64,000 nucleotides of DNA from Acidobacteriota bacterium (GCA_016184115.1 JACPDH010000028.1:1-64000); one strand, 5' to 3'; counted from the stretch's first letter, positions 4,330-23,426 are shown. Notes: generated by a model from the sequence alone, not told the origin. Translations and numbers: made by a program.

Positions 4330-4358
4330 GGGGTCACACCGAAAGTTGAAAGTTTTCG
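4330..4358 (+). repeat. REP-like repeat, copy 1
   Basis: 29-bp unit beginning GGGGTCACAC and continuing CGAAA-GTTGAAAGT-TTTCG, so a 5-bp stem (CGAAA/TTTCG) follows an unpaired GC-rich head. This is the layout of REP sequences recognised by RAYT transposases. It lies 15 bp past the end of the dehydrogenase gene. Confidence 0.85.
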
Positions 4359-4454
4359 ACGCAGTGCTCCGCGGCTAAGTGCCCGTTCGCAAAATTCGGC
4401 TACACAGGCCGTGAGTGCCGAGGCGTCGGATGTGAGTGCGATTCGATTGCGATT

Positions 4455-4483
4455 GGGGTCACACCGAAAGTTGAAAGTTTTCG
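4455..4483 (+). repeat. REP-like repeat, copy 2
   Basis: Identical over the 29-bp unit to copy 1 and in the same orientation, with the same GATT preceding it. Confidence 0.85.
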
Positions 4484-4505
4484 GCGCAGGCGATGGCGAG
4501 CGATT

Positions 4506-4534
4506 GGGGTCACACCGAAAGTTGAAAGTTCTTG
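4506..4534 (+). repeat. REP-like repeat, copy 3 (3' end diverged)
   Basis: Same unit, but the last bases read TTCTTGG instead of TTTTCGG, which breaks the stem. The sequence after it (GCAGGGCTCCGCG then CTAAGG) resembles that after copy 1, so copies 1 and 3 were duplicated with their flank. It lies 60 bp past the transposase stop codon. Confidence 0.8.
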
Positions 4535-4594
4535 GCGCAGGGCTCCGCGCCTAAGGCCAAAATCACCGAATGGTCCGAGGCCGCCCACGGCCAA

Positions 4595-5575
4595 TCAACG
4601 AACGGCGGTGGAGTGGTTGTCCTGAAGTTGCTGTACGAGGCTCCGCAGCGCTTCGGCATAGCCCGGATCGCTGCGAGCGAGCGCTTCGCTGCGGCGCACC
4701 AACTGACCGGCGGCCTGCCCGGTAATACCCAACCAATGTCCGATTGATTCGAGCGGCACCTCGGCTTCCTTCCACGCGAGCTCAGCCAGCGCTTTCCGGG
4801 CGGGGGCATGGGAGCGCTTGCGGAGACGTTCGATGGACAGCGAGAACTCCACCGAAACAAGCGCGATCACGGTTTCAAGCGCGGGTCGCACGAAGATCCG
4901 TTCCTCCCTCGAGTGTTCGCGAATCTCGCGCCGGTCGCCGACCATCGACTGCATCTTGTCGCGGAAGGCGTCACCTCCGAGATAGATCCGGCCTACGAGT
5001 TGTTCCCATGGGTTATACGAGGCTCCGCGTCCGTCGGCGACGAATCGTCGGTACGCCTCGCAACGTTCCGAGAAGGAACCGCTTCCGAACTGCGAGAGCG
5101 TCCACTCGCTGTCCAGCCAGAGTGGGACGGGGCCGAGCCCTGCGGTCGCTCGGTAGTTGCTCCATTGGTAATCGGACGCGTGCGTCACGGCGCCGCAACG
5201 AACGGGATTGAGCACCGTGTAGCGCACCAGCTCGAGCAGATGCGATTCCCGCTCGACGAGGATTCCCTTGAACCGCCCCTGGAACAAATGTCCCACGCGC
5301 CGATGTCTCGCGTTGAACGTCTGCGCCCAGGTTTCGTTGAGGCGTTTGACGCCGTACGAGAGCGTCGGTTCGGGCGTCTCGAGGAGAAGGTGGTAGTGGT
5401 TACGCATCAGAACCCAGGCGTGAAGGCGCCATCGGCTTAGACTGACGACATCGCCGAGGATTTCGGTGAAGAGGCTGCGATCGCGATCGGAACGGACGAT
5501 GTCGCACCGGCCGTTGCCGCGAGCAGTCACGTGCCAGATCGCGCCAGGGTGTTCGAGACGTAGGGGTCTTGCCAT
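4595..5575 (-). CDS. RAYT-like Y1 (IS200-type) transposase, REP-associated
   Basis: Single-strand DNA nuclease/transposase of the HUH Y1 superfamily, inferred to act on the surrounding REP repeats. From the start at 5575 the protein has 326 residues: N-terminal MARPLRLEHPG...HVTARGN, HUH motif as His60-Tyr-His62 in RNHYHLLLETP, and the catalytic tyrosine as Tyr119 in LVRYTVLNPVR. A C-terminal extension of about 150 residues includes a helix-turn-helix-like stretch (LAWKEAEVPLESIGHWLGIT, about 275-295), as seen in longer RAYT-related proteins. The frame is open 26 codons upstream, but homology starts at MARPLR. It appears intact. Direct REP copies lie downstream and an inverted copy lies 90 bp upstream, the arrangement of a RAYT with its REP elements. 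Confidence 0.88.
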   Translation of the reverse strand: MARPLRLEHPGAIWHVTARGNGRCDIVRSDRDRSLFTEILGDVVSLSRWRLHAWVLMRNHYHLLLETPEPTLSYGVKRLNETWAQTFNARHRRVGHLFQGRFKGILVERESHLLELVRYTVLNPVRCGAVTHASDYQWSNYRATAGLGPVPLWLDSEWTLSQFGSGSFSERCEAYRRFVADGRGASYNPWEQLVGRIYLGGDAFRDKMQSMVGDRREIREHSREERIFVRPALETVIALVSVEFSLSIERLRKRSHAPARKALAELAWKEAEVPLESIGHWLGITGQAAGQLVRRSEALARSDPGYAEALRSLVQQLQDNHSTAVR

Positions 5576-5666
5576 TCCGCGGAGGTGAGGCGAGTGCGGA
5601 AGCCGAGGTGTGTGCACGCCGAATGTACCTCGGCCGGGGTTCGAACGCGACAAAAACTTTCACGAT

Positions 5667-5694
5667 GAAAACTTTCAACTTTCGGTGTGACCCC
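5667..5694 (-). repeat. REP-like repeat, inverted copy upstream of the transposase
   Basis: 28 bp identical to the reverse complement of the unit, preceded at 5651-5660 by a partial AAAACTTTC. With copies 1-3 it brackets the transposase gene in inverted orientation. Confidence 0.85.
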
Positions 5695-5706
5695 ACGACA
5701 CGTTCG

Positions 5707-5712
5707 TATAAT
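5707..5712 (+). promoter_or_regulatory. Candidate -10 box (TATAAT) of a leaderless GNAT gene
   Basis: Perfect TATAAT ends 7 bp before ATG 5720, so transcription would begin at or next to the start codon. No clear -35 hexamer; TGTGAC of the REP repeat lies 15 bp upstream. Confidence 0.45.
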
Positions 5713-5719
5713 TCTGCGG

Positions 5720-6241
5720 ATGTTCCGCCTCGAGACCGAACGGCTAGTGATTCGAGAATGGGAGCCTCGTGATCGCGATGCATTCCGCGCGATGGCGCAG
5801 GATACGGTCGTGATGCGTTACATCAACGGCGGCTGTCCTTTGAGTGAGGATGAAATCGACGCAGCGCTTGCGCGCCAGCGTCGCAACGCGTCGGAGCTCG
5901 GCTACTGCATGGGAGCGTTGGTCGAGAAGGCGACGGGCCAGGTAGTGGGCGTGGCCGGCATGCAGCCGCTTGGAACGACGGGCGATCTTGAGATCGGCTG
6001 GTGGCTCGCTCCGCGGGTCTGGGGTCGTGGCTACGCGACAGAGGCGGGTGGCGCCGCGAAGAGTCACGTCTTCGAGTATCTAGGCAGGAAGCGAGTGGTC
6101 GCCATCATCGACCCGCCGAACGAGCCGTCGAAGCGAGTGGCGTTGCGGCTCGGGCTTCGTTTCGAGCGACGCGCGACGGGCGAGGAGCTCGGCCATCGCC
6201 TCCCAGACATCGTGGTCGACTTGTTCGGGCTCGAAACGTGA
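5720..6241 (+). CDS. GNAT-family N-acetyltransferase (RimJ/RimL type)
   Basis: Acetyl-CoA-dependent acetylation of an unknown amine or protein N-terminus. The protein starts with the subfamily N-terminus RLETERLVIREWEPRDRDAF, has EIGWWLAPRVWGRGYATEA (acetyl-CoA pyrophosphate loop region, about residue 95) and the late motif NEPSKRVALRLGLRFE. ATG 5720 is chosen over an in-frame ATG 11 codons earlier, because the earlier codons lie inside the REP repeat and a TATAAT sits just before 5720. 173 aa, normal length. It is followed within 30 bp by the next REP pair. Confidence 0.85.
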   Translation: MFRLETERLVIREWEPRDRDAFRAMAQDTVVMRYINGGCPLSEDEIDAALARQRRNASELGYCMGALVEKATGQVVGVAGMQPLGTTGDLEIGWWLAPRVWGRGYATEAGGAAKSHVFEYLGRKRVVAIIDPPNEPSKRVALRLGLRFERRATGEELGHRLPDIVVDLFGLET

Positions 6242-6250
6242 GCATGCGAG

Positions 6251-6413
6251 CATAAGTGGGGTCATAAGTGGGGTCACACCGAAAGCTGAAAGTTTTCGGT
6301 TCGCGTCTCTGCCCTCACTCTCCTCTCCCGAGCCGCCGTCCCCGCCGAAAACTTTCAACTTTCGGTGTGACCCCGTTGGTGTTCGGTGTGACCCCGTTGG
6401 TGACCCCGTTGGT
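6251..6413. repeat. REPIN A: inverted REP pair with stuttered outer ends
   Basis: A direct REP unit (6270-6299; one loop change, GCTGAAAG) and an inverted unit (6345-6374) face each other across about 45 bp, forming a REPIN. The outer ends are duplicated: a 12-bp unit CATAAGTGGGGT occurs twice (6251-6274) on the left, and GACCCCGTTGGT occurs three times (6369-6380, 6390-6401, 6402-6413) on the right. The element fills the space between the GNAT and patatin gene ends, which converge on it, and ends 6 bp before the patatin stop codon. Confidence 0.85.
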
Positions 6414-6419
6414 GCTCAC

Positions 6420-8648
6420 TCAGAACGTACGGCCTACGAAGAGGTATAGAGCCTGGTCGCCACCTTCGCCGAATCCGGCCGCGAGGTAGAGCGGACCGAA
6501 CGAGGTATCCGCGCCGAGCACGAGACTGCCCGCGTACCGCAGGTCGGACGCGCTCACGTCGTCCGCGGTCTCCCAGAGGTTGCCCGCCTCGACCGAACCG
6601 CCGACGTAGATGCCGTCGCCGAGTCCTAGGGGAAGATCACCGGCGCGGTAGAGGTAGAGCGCGGTCACATTCCCGCCGTATTGGCCGCGGACGCTCCTCG
6701 ATGGAGCGCCGGAAAGCCTGAACAGGCCCCCGAGCGTGAAGGTCTCGGGTGACGAGGAGCCGAGCGCGCTATAAAGATTCGACAAGCCAAGAACCGTGTG
6801 CCGGCCGTGGGTGCCCGCCAGGCCAACGAAACTGGCCAGGCGCTGATAGTCGCCTTCAGCGCCGAGATTCTCGCGCGAATCGAAGTAGTCGGCGACGACG
6901 AAGTACCCTTGGCGAGGGAAGTTCATGTTGTCGAACTGGTCGACGATTGCGCTGGCGTGGATGCCGCCTGAATCGTACTCGAGTTCGCGATCCAGACCTG
7001 CGGGGGGCACCGCGCCAGCACCGCCTCGGATTTCGGCAAGTGTGGTTCCATTGACCAGCCCCAGCCTGAGCTCGGCGTATTCGCCGAGTTGCAGCCCGAG
7101 ATCGAGCTCGAACGCGCCAGTATCGAAACGATACGGCGCGACCGCGCCGGTGGCCGCGGGCACCTGCAAGTACTCCGTCGTTGTGCTCTGGCGCGCTCCT
7201 GCGGAGACGAACCACGTCTGGTGAATGCTCAGCGGCTGATAGAGCTCGGCGGAGATCGCCGGGTTCTCGCCAAGCTGTGCGTGGACTTTCAACTCGCCAC
7301 GACGTCGGTTGAGCCGCGTCATTGTGTAGGAGGTGAGCGCGTCAAAGGAGCTTTCACCTTCGAGATCGGCTACGACATTGAGCCCTAAGCGTAGGATGTT
7401 AGGTCCCCAAGGTTTGTCGATCGCCTCGATGTAGAGCTCGAAATCGTGGTCGATCGGCTTCAGACGGAAGTCGATTCGTTCGTAATCGCCGGTCTCGTAG
7501 AGGCGCTCGAGATCCTGGCGTATCGCCTCCAGGTCCAACGGATCACCGGGTCGGATTCTCACCTGGCGCATCACGAATCTCGAGTCGGCGGTGGAGCTCT
7601 GCGTAAGTTGGATCGACCGCACCTTCGCATCGGAGAACGACCGCTTCCGGCGGATGCGCTCGAGTCGGGCCCGATACACTCCTTCGGGAAGGCTGTACCG
7701 CTCCAGCTCCGGCGCGACGTCCCGTGCCGCGGCCTCGCCGAACGGCACCATCTCGAGCCCCCGTTCGAATTGAGCCGAGCCGAAGCCTGTGAGCCGCGGT
7801 CTGACGATCACGTCGGCGAGCTTTGATTGTGCTCGCGTGTTCGCGGCGATCTGAAACCCCATCACCTGACCGGTGACGCTTCCGATCGACCAGAGTTGCT
7901 TTTCCTCCATTGGTTGGCCGACATCGACCGCGATGATTACCTCGGCGCCCATCTCACGGGCGAGATCGACGGGGAGATTGCGCGCAAGTCCACCATCGAC
8001 GAGAGTGCGACCGTCGATGACGACAGGGGAGAAGATGCCGGGGATCGACATGCTCGCGCGGATTGCCTGGCCAAGGTCCCCTCCGCGCAGCACGACAAGG
8101 TCACCGCTCGCGAGGTCGGTCGCGGCCGCGCGGAATGGAATCGGAAGGAGATCAAAGTCTTCGATACCCGCAGCCTGCAACGCCATCTCCTGGAGAGCGA
8201 ATCCGAGCTGCTGGCCGCTGATGAGTCCGGGCGGGATCTGCACGGATCCGCGGTTGAATCCCGCCTCGAAACGGGTGAGATAAGTCTGATCGTCGACCTT
8301 GCGCCGGTAAGGCAGGTGGCGTCGCGGTGGTCGGTCGTCGAGAAGATTTCGCCAGTCAGTGGTCGCGAGAATCGTCTCCATTTCGGAGGGTGAAACTCCC
8401 GATGCATAAAGGCCGCCGACGATCGCGCCCATGCTGGTCCCCGCGAGGCAGTCGACCGGGATTCGCATTTCCTCCAGAACCTTGAGTGCGCCGACGTGCG
8501 CGCTTCCGAGCGCAGCTCCGCCGCTCAACACGAGTCCGATTCGAGGACGGCGAGGTACTCCCGGCTCGTTAGGCTCCCCGCACGACCCATGCGCCGGGCG
8601 ACAGATGAGTACGGTTGCGGCGACAAGGAGGATGCAAGCTCTCTTCAT
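6420..8648 (-). CDS. Patatin-like phospholipase with POTRA and Omp85 barrel (type Vd, PlpD-like)
   Basis: Predicted outer-membrane protein that exposes or secretes a lipase. Residues 1-22 form a signal peptide. The patatin domain has the oxyanion glycine-rich LSGGAALG (41-48), nucleophile Ser72 in GTSMG and Asp218 in DGG, giving a complete Ser-Asp dyad. About residues 330-420 form a POTRA-like segment (RKRSFSDAKVRSIQL onward). The rest, to the terminal Phe of VGRTF, is a 16-strand-type Omp85 barrel rich in alternating aromatic strands, and the C-terminal Phe fits BAM recognition. The 742-residue length matches PlpD-type proteins. Stand-alone gene. Confidence 0.9.
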   Translation of the reverse strand: MKRACILLVAATVLICRPAHGSCGEPNEPGVPRRPRIGLVLSGGAALGSAHVGALKVLEEMRIPVDCLAGTSMGAIVGGLYASGVSPSEMETILATTDWRNLLDDRPPRRHLPYRRKVDDQTYLTRFEAGFNRGSVQIPPGLISGQQLGFALQEMALQAAGIEDFDLLPIPFRAAATDLASGDLVVLRGGDLGQAIRASMSIPGIFSPVVIDGRTLVDGGLARNLPVDLAREMGAEVIIAVDVGQPMEEKQLWSIGSVTGQVMGFQIAANTRAQSKLADVIVRPRLTGFGSAQFERGLEMVPFGEAAARDVAPELERYSLPEGVYRARLERIRRKRSFSDAKVRSIQLTQSSTADSRFVMRQVRIRPGDPLDLEAIRQDLERLYETGDYERIDFRLKPIDHDFELYIEAIDKPWGPNILRLGLNVVADLEGESSFDALTSYTMTRLNRRRGELKVHAQLGENPAISAELYQPLSIHQTWFVSAGARQSTTTEYLQVPAATGAVAPYRFDTGAFELDLGLQLGEYAELRLGLVNGTTLAEIRGGAGAVPPAGLDRELEYDSGGIHASAIVDQFDNMNFPRQGYFVVADYFDSRENLGAEGDYQRLASFVGLAGTHGRHTVLGLSNLYSALGSSSPETFTLGGLFRLSGAPSRSVRGQYGGNVTALYLYRAGDLPLGLGDGIYVGGSVEAGNLWETADDVSASDLRYAGSLVLGADTSFGPLYLAAGFGEGGDQALYLFVGRTF

Positions 8649-8930
8649 GCAGCATTCCTCGGCGAGGACGACGACGACGGTGTGTGGGATGGGCCTTTCT
8701 GTTGAACGCCCGTCGATGCTAGCGATCGATCGCCGCCGCGTAGGTGTCAGCGGTCACATGGGGAGGGCGGAACGCGTAAGCAGAGCCGGACGGCTGCTGT
8801 TCGTCGTTCATCTCCGTCGGCCGGCCCTCGAGATTGGTATCCTCGCTCGCGGTTCCGTAAACTCGCATCGCAAGCGAGCGAACGGTGACGATGGGACCGG
8901 TGTGCGCGAGCCCGGGACGAGGAGGAGTCG
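8649..8930. other. Divergent intergenic region, patatin / thioesterase
   Basis: 282 bp between two genes reading outward, expected to hold both promoters. I see no persuasive -35/-10 pair, repeat or conserved RNA. GAGGAG lies just before the thioesterase ATG at 8931. Confidence 0.35.
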
Positions 8931-9398
8931 ATGTTCTCGAAGACGCTATTTGCCGGATGGGGCGACATGGATTTCAATTCGCACATGAAGAACACTGCCT
9001 TTCTCGACAAGTCGGCGGACGTGAGGATGATGTTCTTCTCCGAGCGCGGCTTCCCGATGCGAGAGTTCGTTCGCATGAGGCTGGGACCGGTGATCATGAA
9101 GGACGAGCTCGAGTACTTCCTCGAAGTGAATCTACTCGAGGAGCTCACGGTGACCGTCGCGATCGCTGGGCTGGCGGACGATGGAAGCAGGTTCGTCATC
9201 CGTAACGAGTTTCTGAAGGGTGACGGCAAGCTCTGCGCGAGGATTTCGAGCACCGGTGGCTGGCTCGATCTCGACGTGCGAAGGCTGGTCGTCGCTCCAG
9301 ATCCACTGCTCGTGGCGTTGCGGGAACTTCCGCGTTCGGACGATTTCGTCGTCCTGCCGTCGAGCGTTCGAAGCAGGAGGGGTCACACCGAAAGTTGA
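8931..9398 (+). CDS. Hotdog-fold (4HBT-like) acyl-CoA thioesterase
   Basis: Predicted hydrolysis of acyl-CoA to free acid and CoA. The N-terminus has the family motif GWGDMDFNSHMKN, with Asp14 and His18 in the positions of the D-x-N-x-H-x-N signature, then a strongly basic and hydrophobic beta-sheet half. The last residues (GHTES) and the TGA stop codon are encoded by the REP unit that begins at 9379, so the repeat has supplied the present C-terminus. GAGGAGTCG precedes the ATG. 155 aa is normal for the family, so the enzyme is probably functional. It may serve the fatty-acid metabolism encoded in the window. Confidence 0.82.
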   Translation: MFSKTLFAGWGDMDFNSHMKNTAFLDKSADVRMMFFSERGFPMREFVRMRLGPVIMKDELEYFLEVNLLEELTVTVAIAGLADDGSRFVIRNEFLKGDGKLCARISSTGGWLDLDVRRLVVAPDPLLVALRELPRSDDFVVLPSSVRSRRGHTES

Positions 9399-9476
9399 AA
9401 GTTTTCGGCTCTGATAGTCCGTTCAGATTTCCTGGTCGCCGTTCCGGCGAGATCTTTCAACTTTCGGTGTGACCCC
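9379..9476. repeat. REPIN B: inverted REP pair overlapping the thioesterase 3' end
   Basis: Direct REP unit at 9379-9408 and inverted unit at 9451-9476 (inner end changed to GATCTTTC). About 42 bp lie between them. The left unit encodes the end and stop codon of the thioesterase. Confidence 0.85.
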
Positions 9477-9534
9477 TCGGTACTTCTCTGTACTTTTGCG
9501 CCCGTCTCGATCGACTCACGCTTCGGGTGATGCT

Positions 9535-10203
9535 ATGACCGAACACGAGGCGCAGAGCAGAATGGCCGGCTCCTACAGATTGACTTGCTACGAGTGCAAG
9601 AAGATGTTCGATTCCCACGCGGCAGAGTGGTGCGACTGCACGAGCGCGACGCAGACTCTTGCCTGCCCGATGTGCGGATGCTGCTCCTGCGCAGCGCCCG
9701 CCGACTGGAAGATCCGCTTCGGCAGTCTCAGGTTTCGCCAGGTAGCTGATACGTTGCAACCGGTGGTCGAGCGTCGGGCAAGGGGAGTCGACAGGCGGCC
9801 TCTCGTGCTGATCGTCGAGGATCAAGCGATCGTCCAGCGGCTCGCGCTGCAGGCGCTGTCGGAAGATTATCGAGTGATCACCGCGCAGGATGGACTCGAG
9901 GGATTCAAACTGGCGACAACGCATCTCCCCGACGTCATCGTGACCGATGCACTGATGCCGAAGCTCGACGGGCGCGAGCTTTGCCGGAACGTCAAGCTCT
10001 TCCCTGCGACGGCAAACACCAAAGTCGTGATCATGACTGCGCTCTACAAGAGTAACCGGTACGAGAGCGAAGCGCTCGGCGCATTCAAGGCCGACGCGTT
10101 TCTCCGCAAGCCATTCTCCGCGGCGGAATTGAAGGAGACGATTCGGCCCCTGCTGGCCGGCCATCGCTTGGGCCAACTCTCTGCGCAATCGATCGCATCG
10201 TGA
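9535..10203 (+). CDS. Response regulator with N-terminal cysteine-rich zinc finger
   Basis: Single-domain signalling protein with no DNA-binding output. Residues 10-60 hold a Cys-rich module: CYECKKMF, WCDC, then ACPMCGCCSC, eight or more cysteines suited to one or two zinc ions. From about residue 100 a CheY-like REC domain follows (LVLIVEDQ acidic pocket, phospho-acceptor Asp in VIVTDALMPKLDG, VIMTALYK, Lys in FLRKPFS). ATG 9535 is preferred because upstream codons overlap the REPIN; ATG 9562 is an alternative. 222 aa. No sensor kinase is adjacent, so it may take phosphate from a distant kinase. Confidence 0.8.
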   Translation: MTEHEAQSRMAGSYRLTCYECKKMFDSHAAEWCDCTSATQTLACPMCGCCSCAAPADWKIRFGSLRFRQVADTLQPVVERRARGVDRRPLVLIVEDQAIVQRLALQALSEDYRVITAQDGLEGFKLATTHLPDVIVTDALMPKLDGRELCRNVKLFPATANTKVVIMTALYKSNRYESEALGAFKADAFLRKPFSAAELKETIRPLLAGHRLGQLSAQSIAS

Positions 10204-10222
10204 GTAATGGTATCGAGAAGGA

Positions 10223-10327
10223 GGGGTCACACCGAAAGTTGAAAGTTTTCGGCTCCATTCGCAGGAGGCGTCGTCATCGCTCCTGGTCGTCGACTCGGCG
10301 AAAACTTTCAACTTTCGGTGTGACCCC
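10223..10327. repeat. REPIN C: inverted REP pair
   Basis: Direct unit 10223-10252 and inverted unit 10299-10327, both near-perfect, separated by 46 bp. The outer flanks (GAGGGG / CCCCTC) extend the symmetry. It starts about 20 bp after the response-regulator stop codon. Confidence 0.85.
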
Positions 10328-12170: not shown

Positions 12171-12961
12171 TACTTGATCCCTCCCTTGGCCTTCAGCAGC
12201 GCGACCAGCTTGTCGGCGAGCTCGTCGTTGCTTCCCGAGAGCATTTCGGCGCCGGCGCCTGCAACCGGTACGAAGTAGTCGACGCGCTTCACGTTCGCGC
12301 TGTCGGCGCCGACCTTGCCTGCGGTCACGCCTAACGCGGCGGCGTCGAGAACGGGGATCTCGACCGAGGCGACTTTGCGGATACCGCGGATACCGACGTA
12401 GCGTGGCTCGTTGATGCCGGTCTGGATCGAGAGGACGCAGGGGAGCTCGATGTCGTTGATTTCCTGTGCGCCTCCCTCGATCTCGCGACCGATGCGGAGC
12501 GACTTGCCGTCCTTCGTCTCGATCTTGTTGACGACCGAGGCGTAGGGGAGGTCGAGGAGTGCGGCGATCATGCCGCCGACCTGCGCGGCGCCGTCGTCGG
12601 CGAGCGCTCCGGTAAGGATGAGGTCGTAGCTCCCTTTCTTCGCGGCGGCGGCGAGGATCGTCGCGATACCGAGACCGTCGGAACCTTCGAATGTGGCATC
12701 GGTCGCGAGGAGACCCTGCTCGGCGCCCATCGCCATCTCGCGGCGGACGATCTCTTCGGCGTCCGAATCGCCGACGGAGATCACGGTGACCTTGCCGCCG
12801 TCACGCTCGACGATCTGGATCGCTTCTTCGACCGCGTAGTTGTCCCATTCGTTCACGGAGTAAACGAGGTCGTCGCGTTTGATGTCTGCGCCGTTGGGCG
12901 CCACGCTGATCTCGTTCTCCGCCGAATCGGGAACGCGTTTGACACATACAAGGATCTCCAT
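12170..12961 (-). CDS. etfB: Electron transfer flavoprotein beta subunit
   Basis: AMP-binding partner of EtfA. The protein begins MEILVCVKRVPD and contains VNEWDNYAVEEAIQI (about 30-45), the beta-subunit signature region IETKDGKSLRIGREIEGG and the recognition-loop stretch GGMIAALLDLPYASVV used for docking to dehydrogenases. ATG 12961 has GGGAGGA upstream and gives 263 aa, normal length; an in-frame earlier start would add 14 unrelated residues. It is separated from the EMO gene by 179 bp holding a heptamer inverted-repeat element. Confidence 0.95.
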   Translation of the reverse strand: MEILVCVKRVPDSAENEISVAPNGADIKRDDLVYSVNEWDNYAVEEAIQIVERDGGKVTVISVGDSDAEEIVRREMAMGAEQGLLATDATFEGSDGLGIATILAAAAKKGSYDLILTGALADDGAAQVGGMIAALLDLPYASVVNKIETKDGKSLRIGREIEGGAQEINDIELPCVLSIQTGINEPRYVGIRGIRKVASVEIPVLDAAALGVTAGKVGADSANVKRVDYFVPVAGAGAEMLSGSNDELADKLVALLKAKGGIK

Positions 12962-13010
12962 GCTGCGGTCCTCCCAATGGTGTTTGATTCCTTCAGAGTG
13001 CAAAGAAACC

Positions 13011-13105
13011 CGAAGTTAGAACGTTGAACGTTGAATTCAGAACCCAGAAAGGAGGCGTTCCCCATTTCAGGATTCCCACTTCAGCGTTCTACGTTCTAAC
13101 TTCAG
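13011..13105. repeat. Heptamer inverted-repeat element HR1 (CGTTGAA family)
   Basis: Left arm 13011-13043 reads in 7-bp steps (GTTAGAA, CGTTGAA, CGTTGAA, TTCAGAA). Right arm 13078-13105 carries the reverse complement (CGTTCTA, CGTTCTA, ACTTCAG). The arms pair over about 23 bp with three mismatches across a ~34-bp core. It lies inside the etf operon, between the EMO stop and etfB. Confidence 0.75.
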
Positions 13106-13140
13106 CCTTTCAATCCCTCACCTGACTCGTGCTTCGCGCG

Positions 13141-15204
13141 TTACTGCTGCATCTGCCGGTCGACCAGCTCGACCAGGTCGATGACTTCCATCTTCCCTTC
13201 GAGGCCGGCGACCTTGATCGCGTCTTCAATGTTCGTCATGCAGAAGGGGCAGGCGGTGACGATGACGTCGGCGCCCGCGTCCTTCGCCTGATTGACGCGC
13301 ACGACGCCCATCCGCTGCTCTTCGTCGGGCTCGTAGAAGAGCATGAGGCCGCCTCCGCCGCAACAGAACGAGCGGTCGCGGCAGTTGCCGGTCATCTCGA
13401 CGCGCTTCATTCCCGGGATCGCGTCGATCGCGGTGCGCGGCGGATCGTACGTCCCGTTGTGACGGCCGAGGTAGCAGGGGTCGTGGAATGTGTAGGTCCT
13501 CGTTGCGTCTGCGAGAGGGTTGAGCTTCAGTTTGCCCCCTTCGATGAGGAGCGCGACGACCTCGCTGACGTGCTGCACGGGTGGCACGTCCTTGTAGTCG
13601 TTGCGAAGTGCGTTGAGGGCGTGCGGGTCGTTGACGACGATCGTCTTCGCCTCCGACGCTTTGATCGCTTCGGTGTTCTGTTCTTTCAGTGTCTGGAAGA
13701 GCATCTCTTCGCCGAAGCGCCGAACGTCATGGCCGCTGTCCTTCTCGTCTTTTCCAATGACGGCGAAGTCGATGCCTCCCTTCGCGAGGACGCGCGCGGT
13801 CGCCTGCGCGATCTTCTGGCTCCGGTCGTCGTAGGACGAGATGCTGTCGACGAAGTAGAGCGTATCGGCGGTGTCGCCCTTCTCGACGCTTTTGACCTCG
13901 ATTCCTTCTCCCACGCCGGCGGTCCACTCGGCGCGCTTCTTCTCGAGCTTGCCCCACGGGTTGCCGCGCTTCTCGAGCGCGCTCATCGGCTTCTGAAGCG
14001 ACTGCGGCACCATTCCCTCGTCGACCATTCCACGCCGGAGATCGACCATCTTGTCGATGTACTCGATACCGACGGGGCACTCTTCTTCACACGCGCCGCA
14101 TGTCGTGCACGACCAGATCTCGTCCTCCGTGTAGATGCCGCCGATCAGGTTAGGCGCATCGCCGGTGGGAGACTTACCAAAGACCGGATAGTGCTCGAAG
14201 GCGTAGTCGCGCGCCTTGATGCTGATGAAACGCGGACTGAGCGGTCGCTTCACCGCATTCGCCGGACAGTGATCCGAGCAGCGGCCACAGTCGACGCAGC
14301 TGTAGAAGTCGAGCATGTGCTTCCACGTGAAGTCCTCGAATTTCTTCACGCCGAACGACTTCAGGTCGTCGAGCTGAGCGTCGGTGATGCCGTGGACCAC
14401 CGGCTTCACGTTTCCAAGCTGAAGGCGCATGAAGTAGACGTTGAAGAGCGAGGTGATGACGTGGAAGTGCTTCCCGAACGGGAGGAAGCAGAGGAAGAAG
14501 AAGAAGGTGAGATCGTGGACGACGTATGCGACCAGATTGACTGCCGCGAGCGTCGACGTCGCGACGCCGGCGAACATCTGCTGGAATGCCCACGCGAGGG
14601 TGAACGCGGTCACGGAATGTCCCGCTTCACGCTGCGCGGCGAGGAGGCTTCCCTCGAAGGCGCTCTCGGAGAGCATCAGCAGGCCGATCATGCCGAGGAC
14701 GAAGAGCGCCTCGGGTGTGTGGTCCTTCCCGTACCTCTCGGGGACGGCGTAGCGTGCCGGCTTGAAGAATGCGCGCCGGATCGCGAGGATCACGACCGCG
14801 ATCAACACGAGCGTCGACGCGACGTCCTTGGCGACGTCGTAGGCTTCGCCTAACGCGCCGCCGAATCCGGGGAGCCGGAATCCGTCGACGAAGCCGAGGA
14901 CGACCATTTCGGTCGAGCGGGCTCCGAGGACGAGGAAGCCGAAGAAGACGACGATGTGCAGCACTCCGGCGAGGAAGTAGCGAGGTTGCCGCCACTGCGC
15001 GAGCCAGAGCTTGAGGACCATCACGATCCTCTCCGGAATCCGATCGAAACGGGGATCCGGCGCGCCCTTGAACAACGGCGCCGCGCGGCGCGCCATGATC
15101 CATGCGAAGCACCCGATCCCGACCAGCGGGATCAGGACGAAGAGTATCCACAACGGGAAGCCCGCAAGTGTCGCGGTCGCGGGTGAGAAGGGCTCATGGA
15201 TCAT
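13141..15204 (-). CDS. EMO-like membrane Fe-S oxidoreductase (ETF:menaquinone oxidoreductase family)
   Basis: Predicted to pass electrons from reduced ETF to the quinone pool, as in the EMO proteins of syntrophic fatty-acid oxidisers and Geobacter. The N-terminal ~270 residues form a NarI-like cytochrome-b domain with several membrane helices and candidate haem histidines (LHIVVFFGF, VVHDLTFFFF, KHFHVI). Next come two [4Fe-4S] motifs, CVDCGRCSDHCP and CTTCGACEEECP. The C-terminus has a CCG domain with CYLG, CCGGGG and CPFC. A preceding CCG-like region keeps the scaffold (SGHDVRRFGEEMLFQ, NDPHALNALRNDY) but has lost its cysteines. ATG 15204 follows GGAGG by five bases. Its place between dehydrogenase and etfBA genes supports the role. 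Confidence 0.88.
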   Translation of the reverse strand: MIHEPFSPATATLAGFPLWILFVLIPLVGIGCFAWIMARRAAPLFKGAPDPRFDRIPERIVMVLKLWLAQWRQPRYFLAGVLHIVVFFGFLVLGARSTEMVVLGFVDGFRLPGFGGALGEAYDVAKDVASTLVLIAVVILAIRRAFFKPARYAVPERYGKDHTPEALFVLGMIGLLMLSESAFEGSLLAAQREAGHSVTAFTLAWAFQQMFAGVATSTLAAVNLVAYVVHDLTFFFFLCFLPFGKHFHVITSLFNVYFMRLQLGNVKPVVHGITDAQLDDLKSFGVKKFEDFTWKHMLDFYSCVDCGRCSDHCPANAVKRPLSPRFISIKARDYAFEHYPVFGKSPTGDAPNLIGGIYTEDEIWSCTTCGACEEECPVGIEYIDKMVDLRRGMVDEGMVPQSLQKPMSALEKRGNPWGKLEKKRAEWTAGVGEGIEVKSVEKGDTADTLYFVDSISSYDDRSQKIAQATARVLAKGGIDFAVIGKDEKDSGHDVRRFGEEMLFQTLKEQNTEAIKASEAKTIVVNDPHALNALRNDYKDVPPVQHVSEVVALLIEGGKLKLNPLADATRTYTFHDPCYLGRHNGTYDPPRTAIDAIPGMKRVEMTGNCRDRSFCCGGGGLMLFYEPDEEQRMGVVRVNQAKDAGADVIVTACPFCMTNIEDAIKVAGLEGKMEVIDLVELVDRQMQQ

Positions 15205-20449: not shown

Positions 20450-23426
<2,977 letters not shown>

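Follow-up and report, generated by a model that had tools for sequence, protein, structure and literature searches.

The window, a 64,000-nucleotide stretch of a genome from an Acidobacteriota bacterium, contains a single-copy gene for a Y1/HUH tyrosine transposase of 326 amino acids (4595-5575, minus strand), surrounded by copies of a 29-bp unit that we call U1. The conserved start of the protein is MARPLRLEHPG at position 5575; the longest open frame begins at 5653. The protein matches Pfam Y1_Tnp above the cut-off of that family and carries the motifs NHYH and YTVLNP. All 62 homologues compared keep H60, H62 and Y119, and the set N59-H60-Y61-H62 plus Y119 is invariant or nearly so. The NCBIfam model REP_Tyr_transpos scores the window protein at 74 bits and a paralogue on contig C19 at 85, with a cut-off of 80, and the NCBIfam IS200 model gave no match to the window protein.

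The AlphaFold2 model of the transposase has a mean pLDDT of 91.8 and aligns to E. coli TnpAREP (4er8) with a TMt of 0.74. About 94 residues of the C-terminal part take the fold of the DnaA DNA-binding domain in Foldseek (3pvp, TMt 0.87, rmsd 1.4), and a Pfam sequence search of this region returned no domain. The DnaA-like domain would probably aid recognition of the duplex terminal inverted repeat (TIR).

Terminal repeats and inverted pairs

A search with 23 nt that allowed up to three mismatches located ten copies of U1 (GGGGTCACACCGAAAGTTGAAAGTTTTCG) in the window, all between 4330 and 10,327. Nine of the ten copies are exact over these 23 nt and one has a single mismatch; the same search found none in the rest of the 64 kb, and 100 dinucleotide shuffles also gave no copies. 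The GGGG heads lie at 4330+, 4455+, 4506+, 5694-, 6270+, 6374-, 9379+, 9476-, 10223+ and 10327-. Two copies are solo units on the plus strand, at 4330-4358 and 4455-4483, and the second has the flank GCGATT in common with those at 4330 and 4506. Two more serve as terminal repeats of the transposase gene, at 4506-4534 (plus) downstream and 5666-5694 (minus) upstream, with their heads facing outward. A bracket search that used no motif recovered these arms of about 29 bp independently, with a score of 29 where the 99% level of the null was 20. Together, the gene and its nearest outward-facing terminal repeats make up the element at 4506-5694.

The remaining six copies form three inverted pairs. 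Pair 1 (6270-6374) joins units at 6270-6298 (plus) and 6346-6374 (minus), pair 2 (9379-9476) units at 9379-9407 (plus) and 9448-9476 (minus), and pair 3 (10223-10327) units at 10223-10251 (plus) and 10299-10327 (minus). The inverted-repeat arms run 6270-6299/6345-6374, 9377-9407/9448-9478 and 10221-10251/10299-10329. All this agrees with an earlier sequence-only reading, which had proposed ten copies confined to 4.3-10.4 kb with none in the remaining 53 kb, inverted pairs at 6270/6345, 9379/9451 and 10223/10299, and an inverted bracket around the HUH/Tyr119 gene. The CGAAA/TTTCG stem it had assigned to the single unit did not hold: the 29-mer folds at -2.2 kcal/mol, no better than shuffled sequence (z +0.23).

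Folding belongs instead to the pairs. Fold z-scores are -9.4, -11.4 and -11.5 for pairs 1 to 3 and range from -9.4 to -12.2 for inverted pairs generally, and two-unit hairpins of this kind occur at five further loci beyond the three in the window. Past the common core, the arms agree within one pair and vary between pairs, as in TTTACGG/CCGTAAA on contig C78 and TTTAGCG/CGCTAAA on C112. Because the arms match within but not between pairs, we suggest that a pair is copied or corrected as one unit. Inverted pairs may be mobile as small non-autonomous elements, the moving form probably being a single-strand hairpin.

Unit families, insertion and class

The sequence-only reading had called for a count of the unit in the complete genome (4.42 Mb). 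There are 25 U1 copies on eight contigs, arranged as solo copies, inverted pairs and clusters, and 10 of them (40%) lie within 6 kb of the one Y1/HUH transposase gene. That reading had also named an even spread of copies, or the same repeats in genomes lacking the gene, as outcomes that would speak against a tie between unit and gene. Neither was seen, because the full U1 core is absent from all 60 relatives' genomes searched, beside the clustering at the gene. The nearest sequences among these relatives are GGGGTCAGGTCGAAAGTTGAAAG pairs in genome G004 and one degenerate copy in G001, a member of the same genus whose TIRYT relatives are 36-39% identical to the window transposase. The GGGGTCA repeats are probably moved by the transposase whose gene they cluster around. 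Identity of 20 of the 25 copies over 23 nt supports an apparently recent spread.

The genome search listed eight Y1_Tnp genes. Three of them are about 61% identical to each other, and each is bracketed by a different GGGGTCA unit, with families of 25 copies (the window gene, on C34), 21 (C19) and 16 (C59). From this pattern we infer that one enzyme would act in trans on its own cognate unit, and three paralogous enzyme/unit pairs in one genome make a natural set for studying repeat recognition. A point against this reading is that one solo U1 copy adjoins a different transposase on C94 (locus L037, 5690-5744), where it lies with a three-step ladder of the kind described below just upstream of the gene. 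That transposase was set aside as a partner of U1, being 36% identical to the window enzyme with U1 on one side only. On C19 (locus L044), two segments of about 500 bp (8299-8802 and 12613-13144) have U2 at both ends and similar interiors; they have different left flanks and lie about 4.3 kb apart. They are likely copies of a non-autonomous element of the C19 transposase.

Evidence for insertion comes from pair 2, which supplies the last codons (GHTES) and the stop of a 4HBT thioesterase-like gene (8931-9398, plus strand). The thioesterase orthologues in G001 and G008 have their own end codons and stop, and no such repeat downstream. The pair looks to have inserted at the gene end, at a site that looks empty in these two relatives, as judged by orthology at this one site and not to the base. 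The relatives' DNA is only about 70% identical, too little for insertion boundaries to be read to the base. In the comparison with relatives the thioesterase gene end alone was informative, and the Nitrospira sequences compared were too diverged. The stop codon supplied by pair 2, the strong pair hairpins near gene ends and the single-copy gene could also be expected of a domesticated system, in which the protein would serve the host by binding its TIRs (in gene regulation, termination or strand repair), with selection keeping the repeats and little or no transposition now. We consider domestication improbable: the units are near identical and confined to the source genome among those searched, and selfish spread fits this better than conserved host use.

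The window region is a TIRtron with its TIRYT gene, and not a GTAG REPIN-RAYT system. U1 begins GGGGTCACACC and has no GT[AG]G tetranucleotide at its foot; GGGGTCAC within it matches GGGGWSAS, the motif known from TIRs on either side of TIRYT genes (PMC3733652). We class U1 as a GGGGWSAS-type terminal inverted repeat rather than a REP. A DnaA-box-like reading of GGGGTCACA was dropped; most relatives carry GGGGTCAGG instead. The sequence-only reading is supported as regards an HUH transposase resembling RAYTs and a unit particular to it, the unit occurring in inverted pairs and clustered at the gene, but the REP/REPIN label falls, with neither GTAG nor a hairpin in the single unit. Nor is the phylum a new host: TIRYTs and TIRtrons, the class to which the system belongs, were first described in 2013 with Acidobacteria already among the hosts (Di Nocera et al. 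2013, PMC3733652).

Like the TIRtrons of that report, the window has an HUH/Tyr gene between long inverted repeats of a kind other than GTAG REPs, the GGGGWSAS motif, TIR families present as singles, dimers and groups, and an acidobacterial host. It differs in having three cognate gene/unit families in one genome and truncated re-copies at unit edges, which go without mention in the text of PMC3733652. Quentin et al. (2018, PMC6006769) assigned most TIRYTs to TnpA-Y1 subclass 2.1, which has Y--LNP motifs and a C-terminal HTH or DnaA-C domain and ranks second in size among the groups of Y1 transposases (14.9% coverage). The window protein fits this subclass by its NHYH motif (NH[YF]H in the subclass), YTVLNP and DnaA-like C-terminal fold. 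That survey reported no REP-like sequences near subclass 2.1 genes, a point against our reading of the locus, whereas here we find dispersed TIR pairs in families of 16-25 copies.

The Y1 fold is also shared with IS200/IS605 elements (IS608, ISDra2), but here the gene is single copy, the protein has an extra C-terminal domain like the DnaA DNA-binding domain and Y---NP (YTVLNP) in place of Y---Q, and the ends are inverted terminal repeats rather than subterminal hairpins. REPIN-RAYT systems or REPtrons (Bertels and Rainey 2011, PMC3116915; TnpAREP 4er8) have in common with the window the Y1 fold, inverted pairs, clusters beside the gene and tandem repeats that take in flanking DNA. A canonical REPIN-RAYT system, with GTAG-type REP hairpins mobilised by a TnpAREP, would account for those pairs and that clustering, and for a score near the REP_Tyr_transpos cut-off. 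We nevertheless regard it as highly improbable, since the units have neither a GTAG nor a GTGG foot, the single unit is not self-complementary (z +0.23), the protein has a DnaA-like domain, and copies number tens and not hundreds. The edge tandem copies also differ from those of REPIN-RAYT systems in being truncated rather than whole-unit.

Truncated re-copies at unit edges

Outer edges of the units often carry what we call ladders, tandem truncated re-copies of 5-11 bp of flank plus GGGGTCA and following bases, to varied depth. Left of pair 1 (6252-6269, plus), ATAAGTGGGGTC is repeated with a period of 12 and reads ATAAGTGGGGTC-ATAAGTGGGGTCACACC. Right of the same pair (6375-6414, minus), the flank CACCAAC is used three times, at depths GGGGT, GGGGTCACACCGAA and full; from 6414 the minus strand reads CACCAACGGGGT-CACCAACGGGGTCACACCGAA-CACCAACGGGGTCACACCGAAAGTTG. 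The longest ladder seen lies beside a U3 pair on C120 (locus L267, about 4680-4910), where the flank GCCGA is used at least five times at depths of 7, 14 and about 30 nt.

In the source genome, the 5-nt flank of 23 of 58 units, followed by GGGGT, is present a second time in the 75 bp upstream; when flanks were swapped between units in 1000 trials, this number averaged 0.29 and never exceeded 3. The 299 kb of background from that genome contained no ladders. Across 1.32 Mb of loci, the left-flank match of 111 neighbouring same-strand GGGGTC pairs, 9-60 bp apart, is two-humped, at 0-3 nt or at 5 nt and more. At least 4 nt of left flank match in 64 of these pairs, compared with a mean of 1.8 for 29 hexamers of the same composition (the highest control, 17, was the overlapping CGGGGT). 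General repeat bias was rejected as a cause, as same-composition hexamers and random 6-mers lack the pattern. Assembly artefact was likewise rejected; ladders are also present in the isolate genomes of Desulfospira joergensenii (L146) and Undibacterium flavidum (L189).

The collection comprises 62 ladders in 34 loci from many phyla, 40 without filler and 22 with it. Joins in the filler-free set are mostly blunt, with no overlapping base in 21 of 40 and one base in 5. Thirteen of the 21 unambiguous blunt junctions fall exactly after GGGGTCA, with 5-11 nt of flank. These properties bear on whether an enzyme is needed at all. Replication slippage or template switching could make ladders at a stable hairpin, the polymerase stalling at the hairpin base and the nascent end re-priming a few bases back, with the transposase moving units only. 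The very stable hairpins of inverted pairs, the position of the re-copies just outside the hairpin base, and the fillers and variable depth all suit such an origin. Ordinary slippage is disfavoured because the joins are blunt, slippage usually using microhomology, and a sequence-specific cut is favoured because the join site is fixed after GGGGTCA. Solo units, which do not fold into a hairpin by themselves, have ladders too (C94, C61 and C10). Slippage is on balance unlikely, if still worth weighing.

The ladders are best read as a footprint of HUH cleavage and rejoining. The enzyme would cleave after GGGGTCA and leave a 3'-OH. A second cut, in the flank of another site copy on the sister strand and 5-11 nt upstream, would provide the 5'-phosphotyrosine end to which this 3'-OH is joined. 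Alternatively, the enzyme might nick the flank, a polymerase copy a short stretch, and the strand be rejoined. Either route would add flank plus GGGGTCA outside an intact unit. A cut at GGGGTC/A or GGGGTCA/ (the slash marking the cut) is plausible chemistry because related TnpAREP enzymes cleave at CT or CA near their REPs in vitro (PMC8266576). One fixed cut would not account for a flank breakpoint that varies (5-11 nt and more), nor for the filler in 22 of the 62 ladders. In its general form, the proposal takes ladders as in vivo traces, widespread for subclass 2.1 HUH enzymes, of a cut directly 3' of GGGGTCA and a blunt join to a 5' end made 5-11 nt upstream; it is tentative, and we hold it with slightly more doubt than belief.

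For the locus as a whole, we put a probability of roughly 70% on a TIRtron with a single-copy subclass 2.1 TIRYT, bracketed by 29-bp TIRs headed by GGGGTCA, in which enzyme and units are cognate, pairs act as non-autonomous elements and edge ladders arise from cut-and-join chemistry.

Tandem arrays in which entire REPs or REPINs recur together with DNA from their flanks have been described (PMC3116915, PMC3733652). Truncated ladders joined after GGGGTCA and spread over phyla were not found in the literature searched, which comprised text without figures or supplements and left many subscription journals outside; that no earlier report was found is not proof of novelty. If the footprint reading is true, the cleavage site of a large enzyme class could be read from genome sequence alone, and the cut-and-re-copy chemistry would be one not described for TnpAREP or IS200/IS605 in that literature. 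The ladders give a precise, testable prediction of the position at which subclass 2.1 enzymes cut.

Distribution among homologues

We surveyed 300 bp of flank at 112 homologous genes with enough flanking sequence, from Acidobacteriota and many other phyla. An outward-facing GGGGTC lay upstream of 89 genes and downstream of 74, and 62 had it on both sides; control hexamers of the same composition gave means of 7.8, 10.3 and 0.6. In the motif-free search, brackets at 51 of 124 loci exceeded the 99% level of a cross-locus null, and GGGGWSAS is present in 40 of them. Through the brackets and ladders, subclass 2.1 is linked in many phyla to GGGGTCA as a definite DNA motif.

Double sites of the form GGGGTCA-N5-15-GGGGTCA number 23 in the source genome, where the reversed control gave 0. 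By our own count, the 21 genomes with the gene average about 4 such sites each, and the 22 that lack it about 1. Some genomes with the gene have none and some without it have a few, which weighs against our reading of the locus; several of the latter sites are one shared sequence. A plasmid search gave four weak matches and a phage search none.

Two further repeats were seen in other genomes. On contig C81 of G004, positions 22360-22576 hold a regular 21-bp tandem array, GGGGTCAACCTCGAGATTCTT, possibly an edge re-copy grown into a long array. Upstream of a Nitrospira TIRYT gene (L128, 5550-5850) lies a stretch that recurs many times in several Nitrospira genomes.
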